DNA of 39,800 bases from Gemmobacter caeni (GTDB lineage: Bacteria > Pseudomonadota > Alphaproteobacteria > Rhodobacterales > Rhodobacteraceae). The stretch's first letter is position 1. Each line of letters opens with the position of its first letter. The notes below the pieces were generated by a model that saw only the letters and a program-made list of their open reading frames with translations, did not search any database and was not told the DNA's origin. Below are positions 2,024-16,276 of this stretch, one piece after another. The stretch lies in the NCBI RefSeq assembly GCF_003054195.1, contig NZ_QBKP01000026.1, positions 1-39,800 of the forward strand. Direction: 5' to 3'. Made by a program: the position numbers and the translations under genes.

Positions 2024-2914
2024 TCAGACAGAGGGAGTGGCCTCTCGGTCGGCCCGCACATGGGCCGCCAGAGCCGTTTCGGGGCGCTCGTCACAAGGCC
2101 CGATGGCGGCGCGCAGCCGGTGCAGTTCCGGCGCCATGATGGCGGTCTCGGCGGCTTGTGCCGGGGATGACAGCCGCAGCAGATCCGGCGCGCTCAGTTC
2201 CCCGGCGATGATCTGCGCCAGCGCGCCCAGGCTTCGGGCCGCGCCGGAGCCGATGTCAAAAGCTCCCGTTGCGCCTGACAGCAGCAGTGTAACGATGCAG
2301 TGCGCCACATGGGCGGTCGAAGCAAAATCGCGGATCAGACCCGATGCGCGGACCTCTGCGGGCTGGCCTTGTCGTATGGCGTCGATCAGCGATGGCACCA
2401 GCCTGCGCCGATCCTCGCCCGGCCCATAAAGGTGAAACAGGCGCGCCCAGACCAGCCCGGTGCCACAGACCGCCGCCAGATCGCAATGCAACTCCGCCTT
2501 GGCCTGCCCGTAGGGGGTTGAGGGGGCGATCAGACGGTCTTCATTCCATGGTCCCGCGATCTGCGCATCGTACTCTGCACAGGTGCCAAGCGCCAGAACC
2601 CTTGTCCCGCCCGCCGCGCAGAACCGGCGTATCAAATCCAGCGATGCGGCCTGCCATGCCGTGTTGGAGGGGGCGGTCCAAAAGCTGCCATGCGGCACCT
2701 CCCAGGCGGCGTGGATCAACAGCGGCGCCAGCCCTGCAACACGCGCGCGGTCTTCCTTGCGCAACAGGTCTGCCCGATGCCAGATCACCCCGGTTTGGGC
2801 CGGGCCGGGATGGCGGCTGACCGCATGGACCGGGATGCCGCGAAACCGCAGCTCTGCCAGAATGGCCCGACCGACGAAGCCGGTAGCGCCGGTCAGCGTA
2901 ACCGGATCAGCCAT
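2024..2914 (-). CDS. NAD-dependent epimerase/dehydratase family 4-ketoreductase (nucleotide-sugar)
   Basis: A 296-residue extended SDR. It has the N-terminal NAD(P) motif GATGFVG (residues 9-15) and a catalytic Tyr-x3-Lys in TPYGQAK (about 133-138). The start at 2914 gives the canonical MADPVTLTGATGFVG beginning and overlaps the epimerase stop by 8 bases. It is the last gene of the sugar cassette. By family and position it probably reduces the C4 keto group of the methylated, epimerised CDP-6-deoxy-4-ketohexose (RmlD/TylCIV-like role), but a second epimerase role cannot be excluded. It converges on the DUF2783 gene with only 28 bases between. Confidence 0.85.
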   Translation of the reverse strand: MADPVTLTGATGFVGRAILAELRFRGIPVHAVSRHPGPAQTGVIWHRADLLRKEDRARVAGLAPLLIHAAWEVPHGSFWTAPSNTAWQAASLDLIRRFCAAGGTRVLALGTCAEYDAQIAGPWNEDRLIAPSTPYGQAKAELHCDLAAVCGTGLVWARLFHLYGPGEDRRRLVPSLIDAIRQGQPAEVRASGLIRDFASTAHVAHCIVTLLLSGATGAFDIGSGAARSLGALAQIIAGELSAPDLLRLSSPAQAAETAIMAPELHRLRAAIGPCDERPETALAAHVRADREATPSV

Positions 2915-3440
2915 GTACAAAATCCGGCCAGTCGCGGTCACGGCCCGAGATGGCCGCGGGCGGTGCTGCCCAGCGGATGCCAAAGGCCGGGTCGTCCCAG
3001 CGGGCGCCGCGTGCGGCCTCGGGACTGTGCGGCACATCCATCAGATATTCCACCACGGCGCCGGGGGTCAGCGTCAGAAACCCGTGCGCAACCCCGCGCG
3101 GCAACAGCAGCGCCGCACCGTTTTCCGCCGAAAGCTCCACCGCATGCCAGCGCAGATAGCCGGGGCTTTCGGGCCGCAGGTCAAGCGCGACATCCTGAAT
3201 GCGGCCCGCCACACAGCGCACCAGCTTCTGTTCGCCCTTCGGTTCGGCCTGCCAGTGCAGGCCGCGAAGGGTATGAGGAGCCGTATTGGTGGACAGGCTG
3301 GCCTGAACGGGCGTGAAATCGACCCCTGCCGCGGCAAAGCTTGCGGCGCACCATGACCGCCGGAAACCGCCCCGCGCATCTTCGTGGCTTTGGCTTTCCA
3401 CCAGCCAGACGTCGGGCAGGGGTGTCGGGGCCTGCCGCAT
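2907..3440 (-). CDS. RmlC-type sugar-nucleotide 3,5- or 5-epimerase
   Basis: A 177-residue cupin of the dTDP-4-dehydrorhamnose 3,5-epimerase family, near the usual 180-185 length. The RGLHWQ motif holds the catalytic-base His (H62), and PRGVAHGF (about 114-121) and the late WDDP (148-151) are both present. The Tyr that normally precedes the (S/A)PE motif and serves as the general acid is His here (H138 in VPHSPE), so the substrate or position of epimerisation may differ from RmlC. The ATG at 3440 shares its A with the stop of the methyltransferase (TGATG junction), which indicates translational coupling. With rfbF/rfbG alongside, the substrate is probably CDP-linked rather than dTDP-linked. 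Confidence 0.88.
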   Translation of the reverse strand: MRQAPTPLPDVWLVESQSHEDARGGFRRSWCAASFAAAGVDFTPVQASLSTNTAPHTLRGLHWQAEPKGEQKLVRCVAGRIQDVALDLRPESPGYLRWHAVELSAENGAALLLPRGVAHGFLTLTPGAVVEYLMDVPHSPEAARGARWDDPAFGIRWAAPPAAISGRDRDWPDFVHG

Positions 3441-4666
3441 CAGAGCCGCCGCATTTCCGGCACTGCGGTCCACAGACCCCCGGCAAATCCGGCGCTGCGC
3501 AATTGGCCGACGATCTCGGGCGCGATGTTCCAGGGCAGGATCAGAATCTCGTCCGGCCCCATCGCCAGCAATTCGTGCGGGGCAATCACCGGAATATGGC
3601 TGCCGGGCAGCAGGCGGCCCTGTTTGGCGGCTGACAGATCGGCCACCGCCAGCAGATCTTTAGGGCGCACCCGCGCGGCATTCAGGAAGGTATTGCCCTT
3701 CGCCGCCGCGCCATAGGCTGCTACCTTGCGGCCCATGTCGGTCTTGGCCGCCAGCCAGGCCTGAAAGCCTTGCAGCACCTTGCGGACGCGGGCGTTGAAG
3801 CCCCTGTAGAAATCGTCGCTGTCCAGCCCGCGCGCTGCCTCTTCCGCGCGCAGCGCCAGAAGCGCGGGCGAGGCCGGGCGCACAGTGGCCGAAGCGAGAA
3901 TGCGCAGGCTGCCGCCATGGGTAGGCAAAGTTTCGACATCGAAGACCTGAAGCCCGTGGCGGGCGAACAGCCGCTCCACCGCCAGCAGCGACCAATAGGC
4001 ATAATGCTCGTGATAGATCGTGTCGAACTGCACCTGATCGACGAGGTTCAGCAGATGCGGCACCTCAACCGACAGCACGCCTTCGGGCGCCAACAGTAGG
4101 GCGAGACCGGCGACAAAGCCGTTGATATCGGGCACATGCGCCAGCACATTGTTGGCTACCACCAGATCGGCGCGGCCATGCCGGGCGGTCAGTTGCCCTG
4201 CGGTTTCCGGCGTCAGAAAGGCCACTTCCGTCGGCACATCGGCGGCGCGGGCGACCTCGGCCACATTGGCCGCAGGCTCGATCCCGAGACAGGGGATGCC
4301 AGTCGCCACGAAATTCTTCAGCAGATAGCCGTCGTTCGAGGCGACCTCGATCACCAGCGATTTCGGGCCAAGACCCAGCCGCGCGGTCATCGTATCGCAA
4401 AACGCCCGCGCATGACCGAGCCACGAGGCGGAGGCAGACGAGAAATAGGCATAATCGCTGAAAATCGCGCTGGCATCGACCACATGGTCAAGCTGGACCA
4501 TGCGGCAGGTGGAACAGACTACCGTTCGCAAGGGAAAGCGCGGTTCGGTGGCCCTGTCCGCATTTGGCGGCAGGTAGGAGTTGGCGACGGCCATGGTACC
4601 AAGATCGCACAGGACCGGGCCGAAAGGGGCATCGCAGGCGCGGCAACGGGTTACGGCATCGGCCAT
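3440..4666 (-). CDS. SAM-dependent sugar C-methyltransferase (NovU/TylCIII/TcaB9 family)
   Basis: A 408-residue enzyme with the three-part architecture of nucleotide-sugar C-methyltransferases. The N-terminal zinc domain has CxxC pairs at C8/C11 and C51/C54. A Rossmann SAM domain carries EVASNDG (107-113). A C-terminal domain ends in ILILPWN. The catalytic segment YHEHYAYWS (218-226) matches the Tyr/His-Glu-His motif of the 3-C- and 5-C-methyltransferases. The predicted reaction is transfer of a methyl group to carbon next to the ketone of a CDP-4-keto-6-deoxyhexose, which makes a branched sugar. The ATG at 4666 lies one base after the rfbG stop codon. Confidence 0.9.
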   Translation of the reverse strand: MADAVTRCRACDAPFGPVLCDLGTMAVANSYLPPNADRATEPRFPLRTVVCSTCRMVQLDHVVDASAIFSDYAYFSSASASWLGHARAFCDTMTARLGLGPKSLVIEVASNDGYLLKNFVATGIPCLGIEPAANVAEVARAADVPTEVAFLTPETAGQLTARHGRADLVVANNVLAHVPDINGFVAGLALLLAPEGVLSVEVPHLLNLVDQVQFDTIYHEHYAYWSLLAVERLFARHGLQVFDVETLPTHGGSLRILASATVRPASPALLALRAEEAARGLDSDDFYRGFNARVRKVLQGFQAWLAAKTDMGRKVAAYGAAAKGNTFLNAARVRPKDLLAVADLSAAKQGRLLPGSHIPVIAPHELLAMGPDEILILPWNIAPEIVGQLRSAGFAGGLWTAVPEMRRL

Positions 4667-4667
4667 G

Positions 4668-5708
4668 TCAGATCTCCAGATAGCGGCTGATGGCCTGATC
4701 GCTGTGCGCGGCCATATCGGTGTCGCGGGCCCAGGCATCGTACCAGCGGGCCGTTTCGGTCAGGGCCTGTGCCGTGCCAAGGCGAGGTGCCCAGTTCAGA
4801 CGGTGGCGGGCCAGACCGCTGTCAAGCGCGAGGCGTGATTTCTCGGGCATCGGGGGCGCATCGGAAAGACGCCAGTCCAGCGGTCGGCCCGTCGCCGCCT
4901 GCCAGCCGGCCAGAAGGTCGCGCACCGGAAGTTCGGCCTCGGCCGGCCCCAGGTTGACGGCTGGCGGGGCATCACCCGTGGCCAGGGTCTCGGCCAGCAG
5001 CAGATATCCTGCCACCACATCCAGCACATGTTGGAACGGCCGGGTCGCGTCGGGGTTGCGCAGACGCAGCACTTCGCCTGCCTGCTGCGCCCGGACCAGA
5101 TCGGGGATCAGCCTGTCCGGCCCGAAATCCCCGCCGCCGATGACATTGCCCGCCCGCGCCGTCGCAAGCGCGGGCAGATCGGCAAAGCTGGCCCGGTGGC
5201 TGGAAACCAGAATCTCGCAGGCGGATTTGGAGGCGGAATAGGGATCATCGCCGCCCAGGGCATCGGTCTCGACGAAGGCGGGGCTGCCGTCATTGCGGTA
5301 AACCTTGTCCGAAGTGACGATGACCGCCGCTGTGGCACCGGAGCCGCGCAGGGCCTGCAACAGGTGCAGGGTTCCGGTGACATTGCTGTCCCATGTGCCT
5401 TGCGGATCACGGTATCCGGTCGAGACGATCGCCTGCGCCGCCAGATGCAACACGACCTCCGCCCCGGCGACGGCCTGCCTGACCGCCCCAGCGTCCCGCA
5501 GGTCGCCGCGCAGATCCCGCGCCAGATCCTGGGCCACGTTCAGTGCCCCGAAGGCCGCAGGCCCGGCTGCGGGGGGGAGGGCGAAGCCGGTGACATCTGC
5601 ACCAAGCGCGGCCAGCATCCGCGCTGCCCAGGCACCCTTGAAGCCGGTATGCCCCGTCAGCAGCACGCGGCGCCCGGCCCAGTACCGGGGATCGGGGCGC
5701 CTTACCAC
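4668..5708 (-). CDS. rfbG: CDP-glucose 4,6-dehydratase
   Basis: A 346-residue NAD-dependent SDR converting CDP-D-glucose to CDP-4-keto-6-deoxy-D-glucose. The N-terminus shows YWAGRRVLLTGHTGFKG, the RfbG-type variant of the NAD motif. SDKVYRND (about 133) and YSASK (about 157) carry active-site residues. I choose the GTG at 5708, which overlaps the rfbF stop (GTGGTAA) and gives the usual short lead before the motif. A GTG at 5738 is also open and adds 10 residues, and neither start has a strong ribosome site. The enzyme takes the product of the overlapping rfbF. Confidence 0.9.
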   Translation of the reverse strand: MVRRPDPRYWAGRRVLLTGHTGFKGAWAARMLAALGADVTGFALPPAAGPAAFGALNVAQDLARDLRGDLRDAGAVRQAVAGAEVVLHLAAQAIVSTGYRDPQGTWDSNVTGTLHLLQALRGSGATAAVIVTSDKVYRNDGSPAFVETDALGGDDPYSASKSACEILVSSHRASFADLPALATARAGNVIGGGDFGPDRLIPDLVRAQQAGEVLRLRNPDATRPFQHVLDVVAGYLLLAETLATGDAPPAVNLGPAEAELPVRDLLAGWQAATGRPLDWRLSDAPPMPEKSRLALDSGLARHRLNWAPRLGTAQALTETARWYDAWARDTDMAAHSDQAISRYLEI

Positions 5709-6472
5709 AGCTTCCACGGCGCCCGGCCCTCTTCCCACAGGCTCTGCAACTGATCGCGGTCGCGCAGCGTGTCCATCGGCTGCCAGAAGCCGTGATGGTC
5801 GAAGGCCATCAACTCACCATCCCGCGCGAGGCTCTTGAGCGGCTCCTGCTCCCAGACGGTCATATCGTCCCTGATCCGGTCCAGCACTTCCGGCGACAGG
5901 ACAAAGAAACCACCGTTGATCATGCCGCCGTCGCCTGCCGGTTTCTCGGTAAAGGCGCCGACAAGGTTGCCTTTCCGCTCCAGCGCCCCGAACCGGCCCG
6001 GCGGCGTTACGGCGGTAACCGTGGCCTGCCGCCCGTGTGCACGGTGAAAGGCGACCGCGGCACCGATGTCCACATCGCCGACCCCATCGCCATAAGTCAG
6101 ACAGAAGGCAGGGTCATCGCGCAGCAGGTGCCCGACCCGCGCCAGACGCCCGCCGGTCTGTGTTTCCTCGCCGGTGTCGATCAGCGTCACCCGCCAGGGT
6201 TCGGCGGCGGGCCGCAGCACTTCGACGGCACCATTGGCCAGATCGACCGTAAGGTCCGAGGAAAGCTGACCGTAGTTCAGAAAGTATTCCTTGATCTGCC
6301 AGCCGCGATAGCCAAGGCAGATGATGAAATCCTGAATACCATGAGCGGCATAGATCTTCATGATATGCCACAGGATCGGGCGGCCACCGATCTCGACCAT
6401 GGGCTTGGGTCTCAGCCCGGTTTCTTCAGAAAGCCGCGTGCCGCGCCCGCCTGCCAGAATGACTGCCTTCAC
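5702..6472 (-). CDS. rfbF: glucose-1-phosphate cytidylyltransferase
   Basis: A 256-residue nucleotidyltransferase that makes CDP-glucose from CTP and glucose-1-phosphate, the committing step of CDP-hexose synthesis. The N-terminal MKAVILAGGRGTRLSEET and the LRPKPMVEIGGRPILWHIMK segment are diagnostic of RfbF. TYGDGVGDVD (about 126) supplies the metal-binding Asp. Length matches the family (about 257). The start ATG overlaps the glycosyltransferase stop by four bases (ATGA). Its presence indicates that the cassette uses CDP, not dTDP or GDP, as carrier. Confidence 0.95.
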   Translation of the reverse strand: MKAVILAGGRGTRLSEETGLRPKPMVEIGGRPILWHIMKIYAAHGIQDFIICLGYRGWQIKEYFLNYGQLSSDLTVDLANGAVEVLRPAAEPWRVTLIDTGEETQTGGRLARVGHLLRDDPAFCLTYGDGVGDVDIGAAVAFHRAHGRQATVTAVTPPGRFGALERKGNLVGAFTEKPAGDGGMINGGFFVLSPEVLDRIRDDMTVWEQEPLKSLARDGELMAFDHHGFWQPMDTLRDRDQLQSLWEEGRAPWKLW

Positions 6473-8763
6473 TCGGATGCCACCTTTCTGGCCAGATCAT
6501 AGAAATTCCGGGTGAACCGCGCGGGCTGGCCCAGAGGGTTCGCGGCGATCTGCGCGCGCAGGCCGTGGCGCAGCGCAAGGCGGCGGGCGGGATGGGCCAC
6601 CAGACCGGCGGCGGCGGACACATAATCGGCGACCGACAGCGTCGCCAGATCGCCCAGCCCCGCATTGGACAGGTTCGAATAGCTGAGCCGCTCGGGAAAG
6701 CCCGCGCCGACAAGGCTGACCGTGGGCACCCCCATCCAGAGCGCCTCGCAGGTCGTGGTGCCGCCGACATGGGGCAGGGTATCCAGCGCGATGTCGATTT
6801 CGTTGTAGTGGCGCATATGATCGCCACGGACACCGATGAACTCCAGCCGGTCCGGGTCGACATCGCGGCGGGCGAAGGCGGCTCTCGCCCCCGCGACAAA
6901 GCTTCCGACCCCGGCTTCGGGCCGCAGGAACAGGAACCGCGATCCCGGTACGACCCGCAGTACCGCCGCCCAGGCGTCCAGACAGGCGGGGGTGTATTTG
7001 TACGGATTGTTCGCCGTGCCGAAGGTCAGATGGCCCTTGCGCGTCTGCGGCGTGCCCTCCGCGATCTCGTGCGGCCAGAACAGTCGCGACAGAGCGACCC
7101 AGGTTTCGGGCATCGCGAAGGGCCGTTCGATCAGCAGGCGCGGGTCTTCGGGCTGGAGATAGGGATCGGTCAGGATCAGGTCGATCTGTTCCAGCCCCGC
7201 CGAATGCGGATAGCCCAGCCAGCTTGCCCCCAGACGCGCGGGCCGTCGGGCCATCACCTCCAGCTTGTTCATCGCCGTGGACCCGCCGAGTTCGAACAGG
7301 ATATCGAGCCCGTCCGCCGCGATCCCTTCGGCCACCTGATCATCCGGGCGCTTCGGCCAGTGACGAAAGCCGGTCACCTGCGCTTCCAGATGACGCTGCA
7401 CCTGATCGGGTTCCTTCTCGCTGAAGGAATAACAGAAGACTTCGACCGCATCGCGATCATAGTTTTCCAGCAACGGCAGGGTGAAATAGGTGATCGGATG
7501 GTGCCGCAGATCGGAGGACATGAAGCCCACGCGCAGCTTGCGGCCACCGGCAAGCGCCGGCAGGGCGACGGGCGGAACCGGGGTGATCTGGCGGGCAACG
7601 CGGCGTCCCCATTGCCGATGCCAGTCCACCAGCTTCAGCCGGTCGTCCAGGGTCTGCACCTGCCCCAGTTCATAGTGAACCGAGGAATGCAATCCTTGGG
7701 CCTGCCAAAGCGGCAGCAGGTTGTCCAGGCTGCCGGTCTGCGCCATCCGGTCTTCGTCCAGCACCCGTTGCAGGATGGTCCGCAGGGTACGCGCGGCCTC
7801 GGGGATGCGCGTTGGAAACCGTTCCATCAGCCGTTTGGCCAGATGGTAGGCCCGTTCGATATGATCCGCCTCGTTGCCATACCGGCTGCGCGACAGGCTT
7901 TCGGTCAGCCGGTCCAGCGCCACGAAACTGTCGGGATGACCCGCGACCGCCCGTTCCAGCGCCCGGTTCACCTGTTCGCGATCACTGTCCCCGATCAGGT
8001 TGGCCAGTTGCAGGTTGGCGGCCAGATGTGCCGGGTCCTGCGCCAGAACCGCGTTCAGGATGGCCTGAGCCCGTGCCACATCGCCGCTGCGAAAGGACAG
8101 CCGCGCGTCGATGACAGCCAGTTCGCTGTCCCCGGGCCGCTCTTCGCACAGCTTTGCAATCAGGGCGCGCGCCTCGTCCACGCGCCCGGCAACCTGAAGC
8201 GCCTGAACCAGAAACGCCGTCATCTCGGTATCGCGCGGCGCCAGAGCCAGGCCACGCCGGAAGGAATCGCAGGCTTCCTCTGTTTGCGACAGTGCCATCT
8301 GCTGACGCCCCAGAAGCCGCCAGAGCGTTGCCGATGTCGGCTCGATCTTCAGGGCACTGCGGAAACAGGCCGCCGCCTTATCCGGCTGGCCCAGAGCCTC
8401 ATAGACATTGCCAAGGTTCTGCCAGGGTGACCGGTCATGCGGGCGCAGCTTGCGGGCAAGCTCCAGAACTTCGGCAGCCTTTCCAAGCCGCCCGGCGCGT
8501 TTCAGCAGAACCCCCATCAGATTGACAGTGGCGCCATCCTTCTGCGCCTTGGCAAACAGGGGCTTGAAAGCTTCCACTGCCTCGGCGTGGCGGCCCAGTT
8601 CGGACAGCGCAAGCGCATGGCCGCGCGCGGTCAGCCGTGTCGAGGCGCCTGCTGCCCTTGCCTGGGCAAAAGCGGTGACCGCACCCTGAAGATCCCTGCG
8701 ATCCAGCGCCTCCTGCGCAGAGGCAAGGGCAAGCTCGGCGGGGGTCAGGCGGATGTCTTTCAT
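6469..8763 (-). CDS. TPR-containing GT41 (SPINDLY/OGT-like) protein O-glycosyltransferase
   Basis: About 764 residues. The N-terminal half (about 10-390) is a run of TPR-like helical repeats. The C-terminal half (about 405-760) is a bacterial GT41 domain. GT41 marks include VGFMSSDLRHHPI (catalytic-type His near 420), the late FGTANNPYKYTP segment with the conserved Lys (about 589), and LPHVGGTTTCEALWMGVPTV. No signal peptide or membrane helix is seen, so it should act in the cytoplasm on protein Ser/Thr or hydroxylated residues, with the TPRs selecting targets. The ATG at 8763 is preferred over an in-frame GTG at 8775. It sits between the sigma/anti-sigma pair and the CDP-sugar genes, so the cassette sugar is its likely donor, though that is inference. 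Confidence 0.88.
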   Translation of the reverse strand: MKDIRLTPAELALASAQEALDRRDLQGAVTAFAQARAAGASTRLTARGHALALSELGRHAEAVEAFKPLFAKAQKDGATVNLMGVLLKRAGRLGKAAEVLELARKLRPHDRSPWQNLGNVYEALGQPDKAAACFRSALKIEPTSATLWRLLGRQQMALSQTEEACDSFRRGLALAPRDTEMTAFLVQALQVAGRVDEARALIAKLCEERPGDSELAVIDARLSFRSGDVARAQAILNAVLAQDPAHLAANLQLANLIGDSDREQVNRALERAVAGHPDSFVALDRLTESLSRSRYGNEADHIERAYHLAKRLMERFPTRIPEAARTLRTILQRVLDEDRMAQTGSLDNLLPLWQAQGLHSSVHYELGQVQTLDDRLKLVDWHRQWGRRVARQITPVPPVALPALAGGRKLRVGFMSSDLRHHPITYFTLPLLENYDRDAVEVFCYSFSEKEPDQVQRHLEAQVTGFRHWPKRPDDQVAEGIAADGLDILFELGGSTAMNKLEVMARRPARLGASWLGYPHSAGLEQIDLILTDPYLQPEDPRLLIERPFAMPETWVALSRLFWPHEIAEGTPQTRKGHLTFGTANNPYKYTPACLDAWAAVLRVVPGSRFLFLRPEAGVGSFVAGARAAFARRDVDPDRLEFIGVRGDHMRHYNEIDIALDTLPHVGGTTTCEALWMGVPTVSLVGAGFPERLSYSNLSNAGLGDLATLSVADYVSAAAGLVAHPARRLALRHGLRAQIAANPLGQPARFTRNFYDLARKVASE

Positions 8764-8777
8764 GTGCTGCGGCACCG

Positions 8778-9548
8778 TCAGTTGAACCGATGGCGCAGCA
8801 CTTCCGCGCCGCGCCGCAAATCCGTGGCGGTGCCGGAATTGTCGACCAGCACAAAGGCGGTGCGGTTGCGTTCAAAGAACGCCAGCGCGCCGTCTCCACG
8901 GGCGGTCGCCGTGGCGGGCATGTCCGGTCCGTCGACACTGCGCAGCACGCTGAACAGCAGGATTTCCCCCAGATCAGGCGTTTCGATGACCAGGGCGACG
9001 CCCGGACGTTCCGGCGTGGCCACGATCTGCGCGGCGCGGATCGACCAGCCCTGCGGCAGCCGTGGCAGATCAATGCCCAGCCGGGCCGCGATGCGGGTGG
9101 GATCTTTCGGCATCGGGCCAAGATCGTTGCTGAGCGCGATGCGCAGGCTCACGGCATCCTGCACGTCCAGTGCGGTCTCGAAAAGCCGGGCAATATCGCC
9201 CGAGGGGGTTTCGGGCGTCCGGGGGTAAAGGCCCTGTGCGGTCCAGCCCATGACAAACATCGCCGCCGCTGCGGCGAAAGGTAGCCAGCGGCGCAGTGAC
9301 TGGCGCTGCGCAAGCCCTGTCTCCAGTCGGCTTGCGGCCAGCCGCATCTGCGGCGGAGGGGGGCTTTCCACCGCAGCCATGGCCAGCCGCAAACCTTCGG
9401 TGAGGCGCATTTCGGCCATCACTTCTGCGGCGCGCCCCGGATGCCGCGACAGATGTTCTGCCACCGCATAGCGTTGCTCGCCGTCAAGCTGATCGTTGAT
9501 GAAGGCGGCGATATCCGTCTCGATCTGGTCCTGGGGATCACCTGTCAT
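8778..9548 (-). CDS. membrane-anchored anti-sigma factor
   Basis: 256 residues. The cytoplasmic N-terminus (1-88) contains a helical EHLSRHPGRAAEVM segment typical of anti-sigma domains but has no HxxxCxxC zinc site. One membrane helix spans about 89-106 (Trp-Leu-Pro-Phe then an Ala-rich stretch). A periplasmic domain of about 150 residues ends at the C-terminus. The start at 9548 overlaps the sigma gene stop by 11 bases, the usual arrangement for a co-translated sigma/anti-sigma pair. It is expected to hold the ECF factor at the membrane until an envelope or redox signal is sensed, but the signal cannot be read from the sequence. Confidence 0.85.
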   Translation of the reverse strand: MTGDPQDQIETDIAAFINDQLDGEQRYAVAEHLSRHPGRAAEVMAEMRLTEGLRLAMAAVESPPPPQMRLAASRLETGLAQRQSLRRWLPFAAAAAMFVMGWTAQGLYPRTPETPSGDIARLFETALDVQDAVSLRIALSNDLGPMPKDPTRIAARLGIDLPRLPQGWSIRAAQIVATPERPGVALVIETPDLGEILLFSVLRSVDGPDMPATATARGDGALAFFERNRTAFVLVDNSGTATDLRRGAEVLRHRFN

Positions 9549-10068
9549 CTTGGCCTCGCACCAGTTTGAGGGAAGGGGGAACCGCCCGGGCGGCGGGGCC
9601 GTCTTCGAAACGCCGCAGGGCGGCACGGGCCCGGCCGACCCGTGACATGACTGTTCCGGCCGGGATATTGAGGATTGTGGCGGCCTCGGTCACGCTCAGC
9701 CCCTCGACCCCCATCAGATGCAGCGCCTCGCGCTGTTCGGCGGGCAGCGCGAGAAATGCCTGGCGGAGTTGCTCCAGCCGGACGACATGTTCGCCTTCGG
9801 GCGGCGAAAATCCGGGGTTGCTGTCGGCCCAGGCCTGTTCACGTGCGACCGAAGCGCGGTGCGCGCGCCTTTGATCGATAAAGAGATTGTGCAGGATCGC
9901 CATGAGCCAGACGCGCAGGTCCGCGCCCGCCCGGAAGCTGCCGCGCCGTTCATAGGCCTTCAGCAGGGCGCCCTGAACCAGATCGTCCGCTTCCGTTTCG
10001 GCACGCGTCAGAACCCGTGCGTAACGGCGCATCGGCTCCAGATGGGGGGTCACGTCAAAACTCTTCAT
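9538..10068 (-). CDS. ECF-family RNA polymerase sigma factor
   Basis: 176 residues with sigma2 (about 10-75, containing RAETEADDLVQGALLKAYE and the LRVWLMAILHNLFIDQRR core-binding/-10 region) and sigma4 (about 105-160, containing LPAEQREALHLMGVEGLSVTEAA and the GTVMSRVGRARAALR recognition helix). There is no sigma3 domain, as expected for ECF factors. It lies 27 bases after the dioxygenase gene and overlaps the anti-sigma gene. A candidate self-promoter (GGATG-N16-CGTAT) lies immediately upstream. It would make the mRNA nearly leaderless, and no clear ribosome site precedes the ATG. Confidence 0.93.
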   Translation of the reverse strand: MKSFDVTPHLEPMRRYARVLTRAETEADDLVQGALLKAYERRGSFRAGADLRVWLMAILHNLFIDQRRAHRASVAREQAWADSNPGFSPPEGEHVVRLEQLRQAFLALPAEQREALHLMGVEGLSVTEAATILNIPAGTVMSRVGRARAALRRFEDGPAARAVPPSLKLVRGQDDR

Positions 10069-10075
10069 GCCCGGT

Positions 10076-10101
10076 ATACGGAGCGGCGCGCGGTTTCATC
10101 C
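10076..10101 (-). promoter_or_regulatory. candidate ECF promoter upstream of the sigma gene
   Basis: Read on the minus strand: GGATG (10101-10097), 16 bases, CGTAT (10080-10076). The same elements, and the surrounding GGATGAAA and CCGCGC, recur upstream of the dioxygenase gene. The spacing is typical of ECF promoters (GGAAC-N16/17-CGTT type). The -35 overlaps the dioxygenase stop codon, and the predicted start point falls at or next to the sigma ATG, so part of the match may be chance. Confidence 0.4.
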
Positions 10102-11235
10102 CGCGCGATAGCCCGATCCTTTCTCTCCGACCAGTGCCGCATTGCGTTCGCGCAGATGCGCGGCGGCATCGTCATACAGGAATGGCAGAAACGCATAGCG
10201 ACGTCCCCGGGTTACGCGGCTCACCTTGTGCAGAAGCGAGCAGGAAAACACCACTGCCCCGCCCGGCGGTGCCTTGAAGCCGCGCGGCCCGTATTCGGGA
10301 AAGCTGACCTCGCCGCCGTCGAAATCGTCGTTGAGGTTGACCGAAACCGCAAACCGGCGATGCGCGGTGCCAGAGGTGGTATTGTCGCGATGTGCCGCGA
10401 AATGGCCACCATCCTCGGCAGCATAGCAGGAAACGATATACCGCTCCATCCGGGTGACCCTGAACTGGTGTGCCCTGGCGATTTCCGGCACGACGCGCCG
10501 CAGGAAGCGGCTTTGCAGGCTGGCGATCAGATCCTTGTCGGTGATGTCAAAATCGCTGCGCTGCTTGTGCTTGCGGTCTGTCATGCCGATAGTGCGGCCG
10601 TTGACCTGCCGCATGAAGCCGCTTTCGGTGCCGCCATGGGACTCGTAAAGTCCGATCAGATGACGGCAAAGGTCAGGCTCGAACAGCCGGGGCAGGAACA
10701 GGACCGGCGCCTGAAGATCAATGCCGGCAAAGCGTCCGGGGGCGGGCTGCGCCTCCACCAGCGCCAGGAACTCGGCCACATCGCCGCCATCGGCGCGGAA
10801 TGGGATTGTGGCCACCACCCGCAGCGTCGGGTCCAGCAGAAGCCAGAAGCGGTTCATGGCCAGCTGTCTGGCGGCTGTATCCGCATCGGCCGGAACCGCG
10901 CCATATAGTTTGGCCACCGACAGGTCGAAATCCCAGAACACCCGGAAGCCGGGTGTGCGGTTGGCCAGACGGCCCTGCGCCTCGTCGCCGGGATCATTGC
11001 TGACCGCGAAGAAGCAGGCGTGTTCGTCGTCGAACAGGTCCGTCCGGGCCAGAACCGCGCGGATGGCGGCCTGCGCCTGTGCATCCCGCGTCGAGCCCAG
11101 AAAGCAAAGCGCGATATGGCGTCCGGCTGTGGTATCGAAGGCAAAGCGGGGATTGGCTGGGGTGCGCTGGTAGAACCACGGGGCCGGATCGCCGGGCAGC
11201 GGCATGGTCGCGGAAATGGCAAAGGCGTCTGACAT
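10096..11235 (-). CDS. fusion of redoxin-like domain and 2OG-Fe(II) dioxygenase (prolyl-4-hydroxylase-like)
   Basis: 379 residues. Residues 1-165 look like a peroxiredoxin/AhpC-fold domain (PLPGDPAPWF start) but lack the peroxidatic Cys motif: the expected TxxC region reads FLGSTRDAQ. Residues about 180-355 form a P4H-type 2-oxoglutarate/Fe(II) oxygenase, with iron ligands H282-x-D284 (HRDN) and H336 (SLLHKV), and R346 (RGRRYAF) for 2OG binding. It would hydroxylate a protein or small-molecule side chain in the cytoplasm. It is the first gene of the nine-gene minus-strand run and carries a candidate ECF promoter. The ATG at 11235 has no strong ribosome site. Confidence 0.85.
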   Translation of the reverse strand: MSDAFAISATMPLPGDPAPWFYQRTPANPRFAFDTTAGRHIALCFLGSTRDAQAQAAIRAVLARTDLFDDEHACFFAVSNDPGDEAQGRLANRTPGFRVFWDFDLSVAKLYGAVPADADTAARQLAMNRFWLLLDPTLRVVATIPFRADGGDVAEFLALVEAQPAPGRFAGIDLQAPVLFLPRLFEPDLCRHLIGLYESHGGTESGFMRQVNGRTIGMTDRKHKQRSDFDITDKDLIASLQSRFLRRVVPEIARAHQFRVTRMERYIVSCYAAEDGGHFAAHRDNTTSGTAHRRFAVSVNLNDDFDGGEVSFPEYGPRGFKAPPGGAVVFSCSLLHKVSRVTRGRRYAFLPFLYDDAAAHLRERNAALVGEKGSGYRAG

Positions 11236-11267: not shown

Positions 11268-11294
11268 ATACGAAGCCATGCGCGGCTTTCATCC
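11268..11294 (-). promoter_or_regulatory. candidate ECF promoter of the dioxygenase-sigma-glycosylation operon
   Basis: Minus strand: GGATG (11294-11290), 17 bases, CGTAT (11272-11268), leaving a leader of about 26 bases before the ATG at 11235. It resembles the element upstream of the sigma gene (GGATGAAA, then CCGCGC, then CGTAT), which suggests that the sigma factor transcribes its own operon. Inference from two sites only. Confidence 0.45.
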
Positions 11295-11333
11295 CGAAAA
11301 AGATCCGCGCGCCCCGGCGTTACCCCCCCGAAC

Positions 11334-11369
11334 GGAAACCACCGCCCCGGATCCGGGGCGGTGGTTTCC
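11334..11369 (-). terminator. perfect 36-base palindrome after the ABC permease gene
   Basis: Two 17-base arms (11334-11350 and 11353-11369) are exact reverse complements around a central GGATCC. The outer ends are GGAAACC/GGTTTCC and the core is GC-rich. It lies 15 bases beyond the permease stop and upstream of the dioxygenase promoter. It most likely terminates the ABC operon and insulates the next one. No long T tract is present. Confidence 0.7.

Positions 11370-14457: not shown

Positions 14458-16276
<1,819 letters not shown>

Follow-up and report, generated by a model that had tools for sequence, protein, structure and literature searches.

A predicted ECF-controlled operon in Gemmobacter caeni combines a 2-oxoglutarate hydroxylase, a GT41 glycosyltransferase and a set of branched-sugar genes

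In Dictyostelium, Skp1 is acted on by a prolyl hydroxylase and a cytosolic glycosyltransferase. In Caulobacter, flagellin is glycosylated with pseudaminic acid by FlmG (PMC7591256), and the flagellin glycosylation islands of enterobacteria encode a GT41 transferase with a SPINDLY domain, one island type also carrying genes for cytidine diphosphate (CDP)-4-keto-6-deoxyglucose (PMC4875605). Here we describe a nine-gene locus of Gemmobacter caeni (assembly GCF_003054195.1, contig NZ_QBKP01000026.1, positions 1 to 39,800 of the forward strand; this whole stretch of 39,800 nucleotides is called the window). It contains genes for a 2-oxoglutarate (2OG)-dependent hydroxylase, an extracytoplasmic function (ECF) sigma factor and its putative anti-sigma factor, a GT41 glycosyltransferase with tetratricopeptide repeats (TPR), and a CDP-sugar pathway. 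The best-supported reading, towards which we lean slightly, is that of an ECF-controlled GT41 with its own supply of a branched sugar, which O-glycosylates a protein and has been joined to a recurrent ECF-2OG operon.

According to this reading, the ECF/anti-sigma pair would govern the operon that encodes it through two sites, P1 ahead of the hydroxylase gene and P2 ahead of the sigma gene. Upon a signal, the anti-sigma factor would free the sigma factor, leading to the production of the peroxiredoxin-like/prolyl-hydroxylase-like 2OG enzyme, the output of the recurrent module. The freed sigma factor would also drive the TPR-GT41 and five enzymes that supply it with a CDP-activated, C-methyl-branched 6-deoxyhexose, and both outputs would presumably serve one response. 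The TPRs of the GT41 would bind a protein and O-glycosylation would take place in the cytoplasm. The acceptor may be a cytoplasmic or a pre-export protein, flagellin being one candidate.

All nine open reading frames (ORFs) lie on the minus strand between positions 11235 and 2024, at the place originally predicted, and neighbouring frames overlap or are separated by at most 27 bases, as had been claimed. Their order is 2OG hydroxylase, ECF sigma factor, anti-sigma factor, TPR-GT41, rfbF, rfbG, C-methyltransferase, RmlC-like protein and reductase. The functions first assigned from motifs agree with family matches of the hydroxylase (PF13640), the sigma factor (NF009164), the GT41 (PF13844), RfbF (TIGR02623), RfbG (TIGR02622), the RmlC-like protein (PF00908) and the reductase (PF01370). 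In comparisons with the related loci L018 and L024, eight genes have a ratio of nonsynonymous to synonymous divergence (pN/pS) of 0.19-0.45, and the anti-sigma gene has values of 0.41 and 0.66. Because these low ratios are found where synonymous sites have already diverged far (pS 0.43-0.62), the nine-gene locus is not a product of chance. Base composition gives no sign of recent import, with a G+C content of 66.3% in the locus and 65.7% in the rest upstream.

The 2OG protein has 298 confirmed relatives, of which the 80 best were retained as loci, and in 26 of these the ECF and anti-sigma genes directly follow the hydroxylase gene (trio loci). Two ECF-type promoter sites, absent from the original prediction, were found in the window. 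P1 (CGGGATG-N15-TTCGTAT, 11268..11296, minus strand) lies upstream of the 2OG gene, and its blocks, [G/A]GGA[T/C]G and NNCGTA at a spacing of exactly 15, are present upstream of the 2OG start in the window and in all 26 trio loci. These 27 sites were used to build a matrix, which was applied to the 300 bases upstream of the hydroxylase gene (other upstream lengths were used for L089 and L096, two of the non-trio loci), and the scores were 14.9-25.5 in the trio loci and 11.5 at most in the 54 loci without the sigma pair. A P1-type site thus precedes the hydroxylase gene in 26 of 26 loci with the pair versus 0 of 54 without it; since the trio loci themselves supplied the matrix, the contrast with the other 54 is the informative part. 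As background, reversed sequences yielded 14 matches scoring at least 13 in 1,446,244 bases. A stricter pattern with TCCGTA finds a match in 14 of the 20 trio genomes searched, exactly one in 12 of these, and 14 of the 18 sequences carrying it are hydroxylase promoters.

P2 (CGGGATG-N14-CTCCGTAT-type, 10076..10103, minus strand) stands directly upstream of the ECF start codon. It scores 23.5 in the window (spacing 14), 21.3 in L018 and 14.4 in L024, and is present in three of the five loci with a same-strand sugar cassette, the window counted. In every trio locus without a cassette the score at this position is 8.1 or less. The carriers of P2 are related and therefore do not form a set of independent events. 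The ECF gene (9538..10068, minus strand) matches the equivalog NF009164 with 224 bits versus a cut-off of 185. The ORF that follows (8778..9626, minus strand, probable ATG at 9548) is assigned to an anti-sigma factor by its position and by a weak match to NF052375, which at 32 bits falls below the cut-off of 100, and no Pfam family was found for it at E<=0.001. Its product lacks cysteine, and its most hydrophobic run of 19 residues does not coincide with the expected membrane segment. The conserved promoter-type site that accompanies the sigma gene suggests an autoregulated ECF/anti-sigma unit, in line with the original prediction of a single sigma/anti-sigma unit.

The GT41 and sugar cassette lies beside the trio in 5 of 26 trio loci versus 0 of the 54 others, some loci of the whole set being short. 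It stands on the same strand in L018, L020, L024 and L035, where the nine-gene order recurs, and inverted on the other side in L040, where the middle sugar genes are eroded. The synteny of dioxygenase, GT41, rfbFG and C-methyltransferase genes, proposed at the outset as a check, is therefore found in relatives. The hydroxylase, sigma and anti-sigma genes are a recurrent module, and the GT41 with its sugar cassette is an add-on. In a 27-row tree of the 2OG and ECF proteins the cassette occurs in two clades, with four label changes in all, at least three of them forced by starred branches; 37 of 500 label shuffles gave an equally low number. An eroded cassette is also carried by the R. capsulatus plasmid pRCB133 (L098, 14001-16520), with a truncated GT41 that is 87% identical to that of the window over 247 residues, together with rfbF, part of rfbG and the greater part of the reductase gene.

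This distribution also bears on the view that two independent modules share the operon, the trio acting in a stress response and a surface-sugar cassette riding along without mechanistic link. Such a coincidence, which we take seriously without thinking it probable, would fit the 21 of 26 trio loci that lack the cassette, the frequency of these sugar genes without a GT41, and the erosion of the cassette in L040 and pRCB133. It is at odds with an association found in two clades, with P2 scores of at least 14 in cassette loci alone, and with the weak divergent ECF-like site of L040.

The original prediction also suggested that hydroxylation may be followed by glycosylation; as an obligate sequence, this is not supported by the distribution of the two enzymes. 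Of 394 genomes of the family, 30 have the hydroxylase (E<=1e-60) and 4 the GT41 ortholog (E<=1e-100; G000, G288, G385 and G402), and 3 have both. Co-occurrence holds for three of the four GT41 genomes but for only 3 of the 30 hydroxylase genomes, so by the co-occurrence criterion set at the outset the coupling is partial. In Fuscovulum blasticum (G385 and the genome of L019, treated as one on the basis of place and promoter sequence), the trio and the full cassette lie on different contigs. In G288, a GT41 (58%) is followed by the reductase gene, no match to the hydroxylase was found, and rfbF, rfbG, the C-methyltransferase gene and the RmlC-like gene are on another contig without a reductase match there. 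With the GT41 and reductase genes on one contig and the remaining sugar genes on the other, G288 carries the same gene set in split form. G381, the one other member of the genus among the 394, gave no GT41, hydroxylase or rfbF match at the limits used.

The 2OG protein (10096..11235, minus strand) consists of a peroxiredoxin-like N-terminal domain, which the original prediction did not include, and a PKHD/prolyl-hydroxylase-like 2OG-Fe(II) oxygenase domain. Its model has a pLDDT of 85.7, the weakest of five models reaching 67.5. The fold of the C-terminal domain resembles PHD2, PiuC and the EF-Tu prolyl hydroxylase, and H282, D284, H336 and R346, forming the HxD...H...R site, are invariant in 31 rows. 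Site and fold predict a prolyl-hydroxylase-like 2OG oxygenase. A peroxidase role of the N-terminal domain was rejected because its cysteine is lost, the peroxidatic cysteine of 2ywn and 5ovq aligning with non-cysteine columns. The fusion of both domains also occurs without an adjacent sigma pair in many Alphaproteobacteria and in Polaromonas (L032 and L042-L097 except L051, L068 and L091). In Niveispirillum (L120; NZ_CP025614.1 91792-108862, at 5414-10626), a 46% homolog lies between two sigma/anti-sigma-type pairs, together with an OpgC-domain gene.

The intact site and the prolyl hydroxylase folds, together with the recurrent linkage of hydroxylase and GT41 in one operon with ECF-type sites, could be explained by a sequence as on Skp1, in which the 2OG enzyme hydroxylates a residue such as proline and the GT41 places the CDP-branched sugar on the new hydroxyl group. 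We judge this quite improbable. The GT41 is missing from 27 of 30 hydroxylase genomes, the GT41 of G288 comes without a hydroxylase match, TPR-GT41s linked to flagellin (L194 and L199) occur in genomes (G083 and G024) that are not among the 30 with the hydroxylase, and the Dictyostelium Skp1 transferase is not known to be a GT41. Little credence is likewise given to a sigma-controlled two-step modification, in which a peroxiredoxin-fused hydroxylase would make the hydroxyl group to which a SPINDLY-like GT41 would add a CDP-activated C-methyl-branched 6-deoxysugar. If it were true, oxygen, 2-oxoglutarate and an envelope signal would gate a glycoprotein.

The TPR-GT41 (6469..8775, minus strand) matches PF13844 with 124 bits versus a cut-off of 25, in addition to TPR families, and was modelled with a pLDDT of 90.5. 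Ranked by E-value, the first eight Foldseek matches are SPINDLY, a protein O-fucosyltransferase, followed by human OGT. H426, K593 and T673 correspond to H495, K665 and T748 of SPINDLY, and K593 also to the mutated K341 of 5djs. Tyr744 of SPINDLY, proposed to steady the fucose (PMC9715652), is replaced by H669 in the window and by histidine in 8 of 8 window-type GT41s. Trees of the GT41 and of the reductase contain no starred branch. The original observation that a protein-type GT41 stands beside a CDP-branched-sugar set agrees with the gene families, and the CDP-branched sugar is the likely donor.

RfbF (5702..6472, minus strand), a glucose-1-phosphate cytidylyltransferase, scores 432 bits versus a TIGR02623 cut-off of 300, and RfbG (4668..5738, minus strand), a CDP-glucose 4,6-dehydratase, 347 bits versus 278 for TIGR02622. 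The sugar 3-C-methyltransferase (3440..4738, minus strand, probable ATG at 4666) has the domains PF08421/PF13489/PF08484 and is closest to the D-mycarose 3-C-methyltransferase (E 3e-80), with TcaB9 also among the 3-C-methyltransferases compared. The RmlC-like epimerase (2907..3473, minus strand, probable ATG at 3440) reaches 141 bits versus the RmlC equivalog cut-off of 156. The tyrosine in the YxPE motif of RmlC has a catalytic role; at its position, five of six full-length copies, the window's included, have histidine and one has phenylalanine. The last gene (2024..3037, minus strand, probable ATG at 2914) encodes an NAD-dependent epimerase/reductase-family protein, probably a 4-ketoreductase. 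Of the complete CDP-sugar pathway originally predicted, the gene content stands, but the RmlC-like protein stays under its equivalog cut-off and lacks the aligned tyrosine.

Protein O-glycosylation is the best reading of the cassette because, in one genome of the same family, a distant TPR-GT41 is found next to flagellin together with sugar genes of the kinds seen here. A search of the first 149 family genomes gave 15 GT41 matches at E<=1e-20 besides the window's, with 12 of the 149 having a match, and their context was followed in 12 stretches covering 14 of the 15, plus one stretch around the flagellin of G. caeni itself. In L194, genes for a TPR-GT41, RfbF, RfbG, RmlC-like, CmcI-like, reductase-like and C-methyltransferase proteins lie between a DUF1217 gene and the flagellin gene, and in L199 a TPR-GT41 gene follows flagellin, FlaF and DUF1217 genes. 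Two of the 12 distant stretches are thus linked to flagellin, one of them also with sugar genes of these kinds, and 10 have no flagellin match; among the latter, L195 has a TPR-GT41 beside rfbF and a CmcI-like gene.

These findings raise the alternative of a flagellin operon, in which the GT41 would attach the branched sugar to the organism's own flagellin, in the way FlmG attaches pseudaminic acid. This we find rather unlikely. The FlmG and enterobacterial precedents speak for it (PMC7591256, PMC4875605), as do the two linked stretches, the single GT41 match (E<=1e-20) of the G. caeni genome, and flagellin matches in 6 of 7 GT41-bearing genomes searched, a count that excludes the genome of L035. 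The linkage seen in L194 and L199 is absent at the window, the GT41 subfamily differs, most distant stretches have no flagellin match, and a flagellin gene would not be expected to be under ECF control. In a separate setting, L197 (G148:C4, ~4808-9705), a distant TPR-GT41 follows ABC-/HlyD-type secretion genes among ORFs that by eye resemble transposases, which suggests another kind of secreted acceptor. In Rhizobium ruizarguesonis (L042, 2802-5451), a flagellin-like stretch (40% to the G. caeni flagellin) is separated by about 1 kb from a homolog of the 2OG protein that has no adjacent sigma pair.

Several observations weigh against the preferred reading, an ECF-controlled protein O-glycosylation with a dedicated sugar supply. 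Regarding control, P2 is missing from L035 and degenerate in L020 (10.5), the ECF-like site of the inverted, divergent L040 cassette is weak (13.5), and no ECF site with a score of at least 11 lies in the F. blasticum cassette stretch. In the G. caeni genome, GGGATGN{14,16}TNCGTA has two exact matches, both in the locus, and in the window, scanned with the matrix at a cut-off of 11, a third ECF-like site (score 15.3) lies outside the locus at 16077-16104 on the minus strand, about 500 bases upstream of a transporter binding-protein ORF. Since the reversed-pattern control gives three matches, the count of two proves nothing; allowing up to two mismatches yields 218 matches versus 88 in the control, with nine one-mismatch matches among about 100 places listed, so that the sigma factor may have a wider regulon. 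The weight of the sites rests on their place and conservation, not on this count. Regarding the transferase, its global root-mean-square deviation (rmsd) to SPINDLY is 14-24, the shorter Xanthomonas OGT (2jlb) superimposes more tightly (rmsd 3.9, TMt 0.83), the sequence of the GT domain alone places TtOGT (5djs, 7.5e-49) ahead of SPINDLY (2.4e-45), and the donor specificity of a GT41 cannot be read from sequence. Regarding the acceptor, the flagellin-linked GT41s share only 27-28% identity with that of the window in their GT domains, the single flagellin match of the G. caeni genome is on contig C12 and the locus on C26, and no flagellin match was found in the 2.1 Mb covered of the genome of L020.

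Regarding the sugar, 64 of the 394 family genomes contain rfbF (E<=1e-60), 27 of 30 rfbF loci with flanks of about 1.5 kb have no GT41 at E<=1e-10, and neither do 6 of 6 longer rfbF stretches. The three loci with a GT41 are those of the window, the L018 genome and F. blasticum; the GT41 of L194 lies just past the flank. Because most rfbF loci lack a GT41, the idea that the sugar genes are specific to it was rejected.

By eye, the locus is flanked by a glycine-betaine-type ABC transporter and a flavin monooxygenase. A perfect 36-base palindrome (11334..11369, no strand assigned) without a T-run separates the locus from the transporter genes upstream of it and is a possible transcription boundary. 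A search for an acceptor gene beside the locus found no flanking gene common to the cassette loci (by eye, with noisy gene calls). Divergent ECF-like sites were also observed in L022 (~9886, minus strand, 14.5), where the site and the 2OG promoter stand back to back, and, weaker and read by eye, in L035. Gene clustering on noisy calls found no gene conserved behind such sites in at least three of the loci.

If the preferred reading is right, an inducible, self-contained operon ties a GT41 to its probable sugar, and a donor range of GT41 beyond GlcNAc and fucose becomes testable. It would also define the ECF-type site GGGATG-N15-TCCGTA, and the widespread peroxiredoxin-like/2OG-hydroxylase fusion would be the most conserved predicted target of the ECF sigma factor.

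In comparison with known systems, the locus shares with that of Skp1 a prolyl-hydroxylase-like enzyme and a glycosyltransferase, but it lacks obligate pairing of the two (3 of 30). The pathways with 3-C-methyltransferases (D-mycarose, TcaB9 and the virenose proposal, PMC3539893) likewise C-methylate a nucleoside diphosphate-4-keto-6-deoxyhexose; the carrier in the window is CDP, via rfbF and rfbG, whereas the virenose proposal considers thymidine diphosphate and guanosine diphosphate (GDP). Plant SPINDLY (7y4i, 8dtf-8dti) gives the best Foldseek E-values and shares the three aligned active-site residues, but it differs by Tyr744 instead of histidine and by GDP-fucose as donor (PMC9715652) instead of the likely CDP-branched sugar. 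The enterobacterial islands resemble the locus in their SPINDLY-domain GT41 and, in one type, in the CDP-4-keto-6-deoxyglucose genes; the window locus lies away from flagellin, and the word C-methyltransferase is absent from the main text of PMC4875605. FlmG of Caulobacter crescentus is, like the GT41 studied here, an alphaproteobacterial TPR and GT-B transferase with a dedicated sugar supply and cytoplasmic O-glycosylation, a feature that is predicted for the window; its sugar is pseudaminic acid, and the available text of PMC7591256 mentions no ECF pair, 2OG enzyme or CDP-sugar genes. Searches of the open-licence PMC literature listed no paper that deals with this operon or connects an ECF factor, a 2OG enzyme and a GT41. 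The novelty is the combination of a TPR-GT41 with a dedicated nucleotide sugar, ECF control and a 2OG partner, and not the parts themselves.

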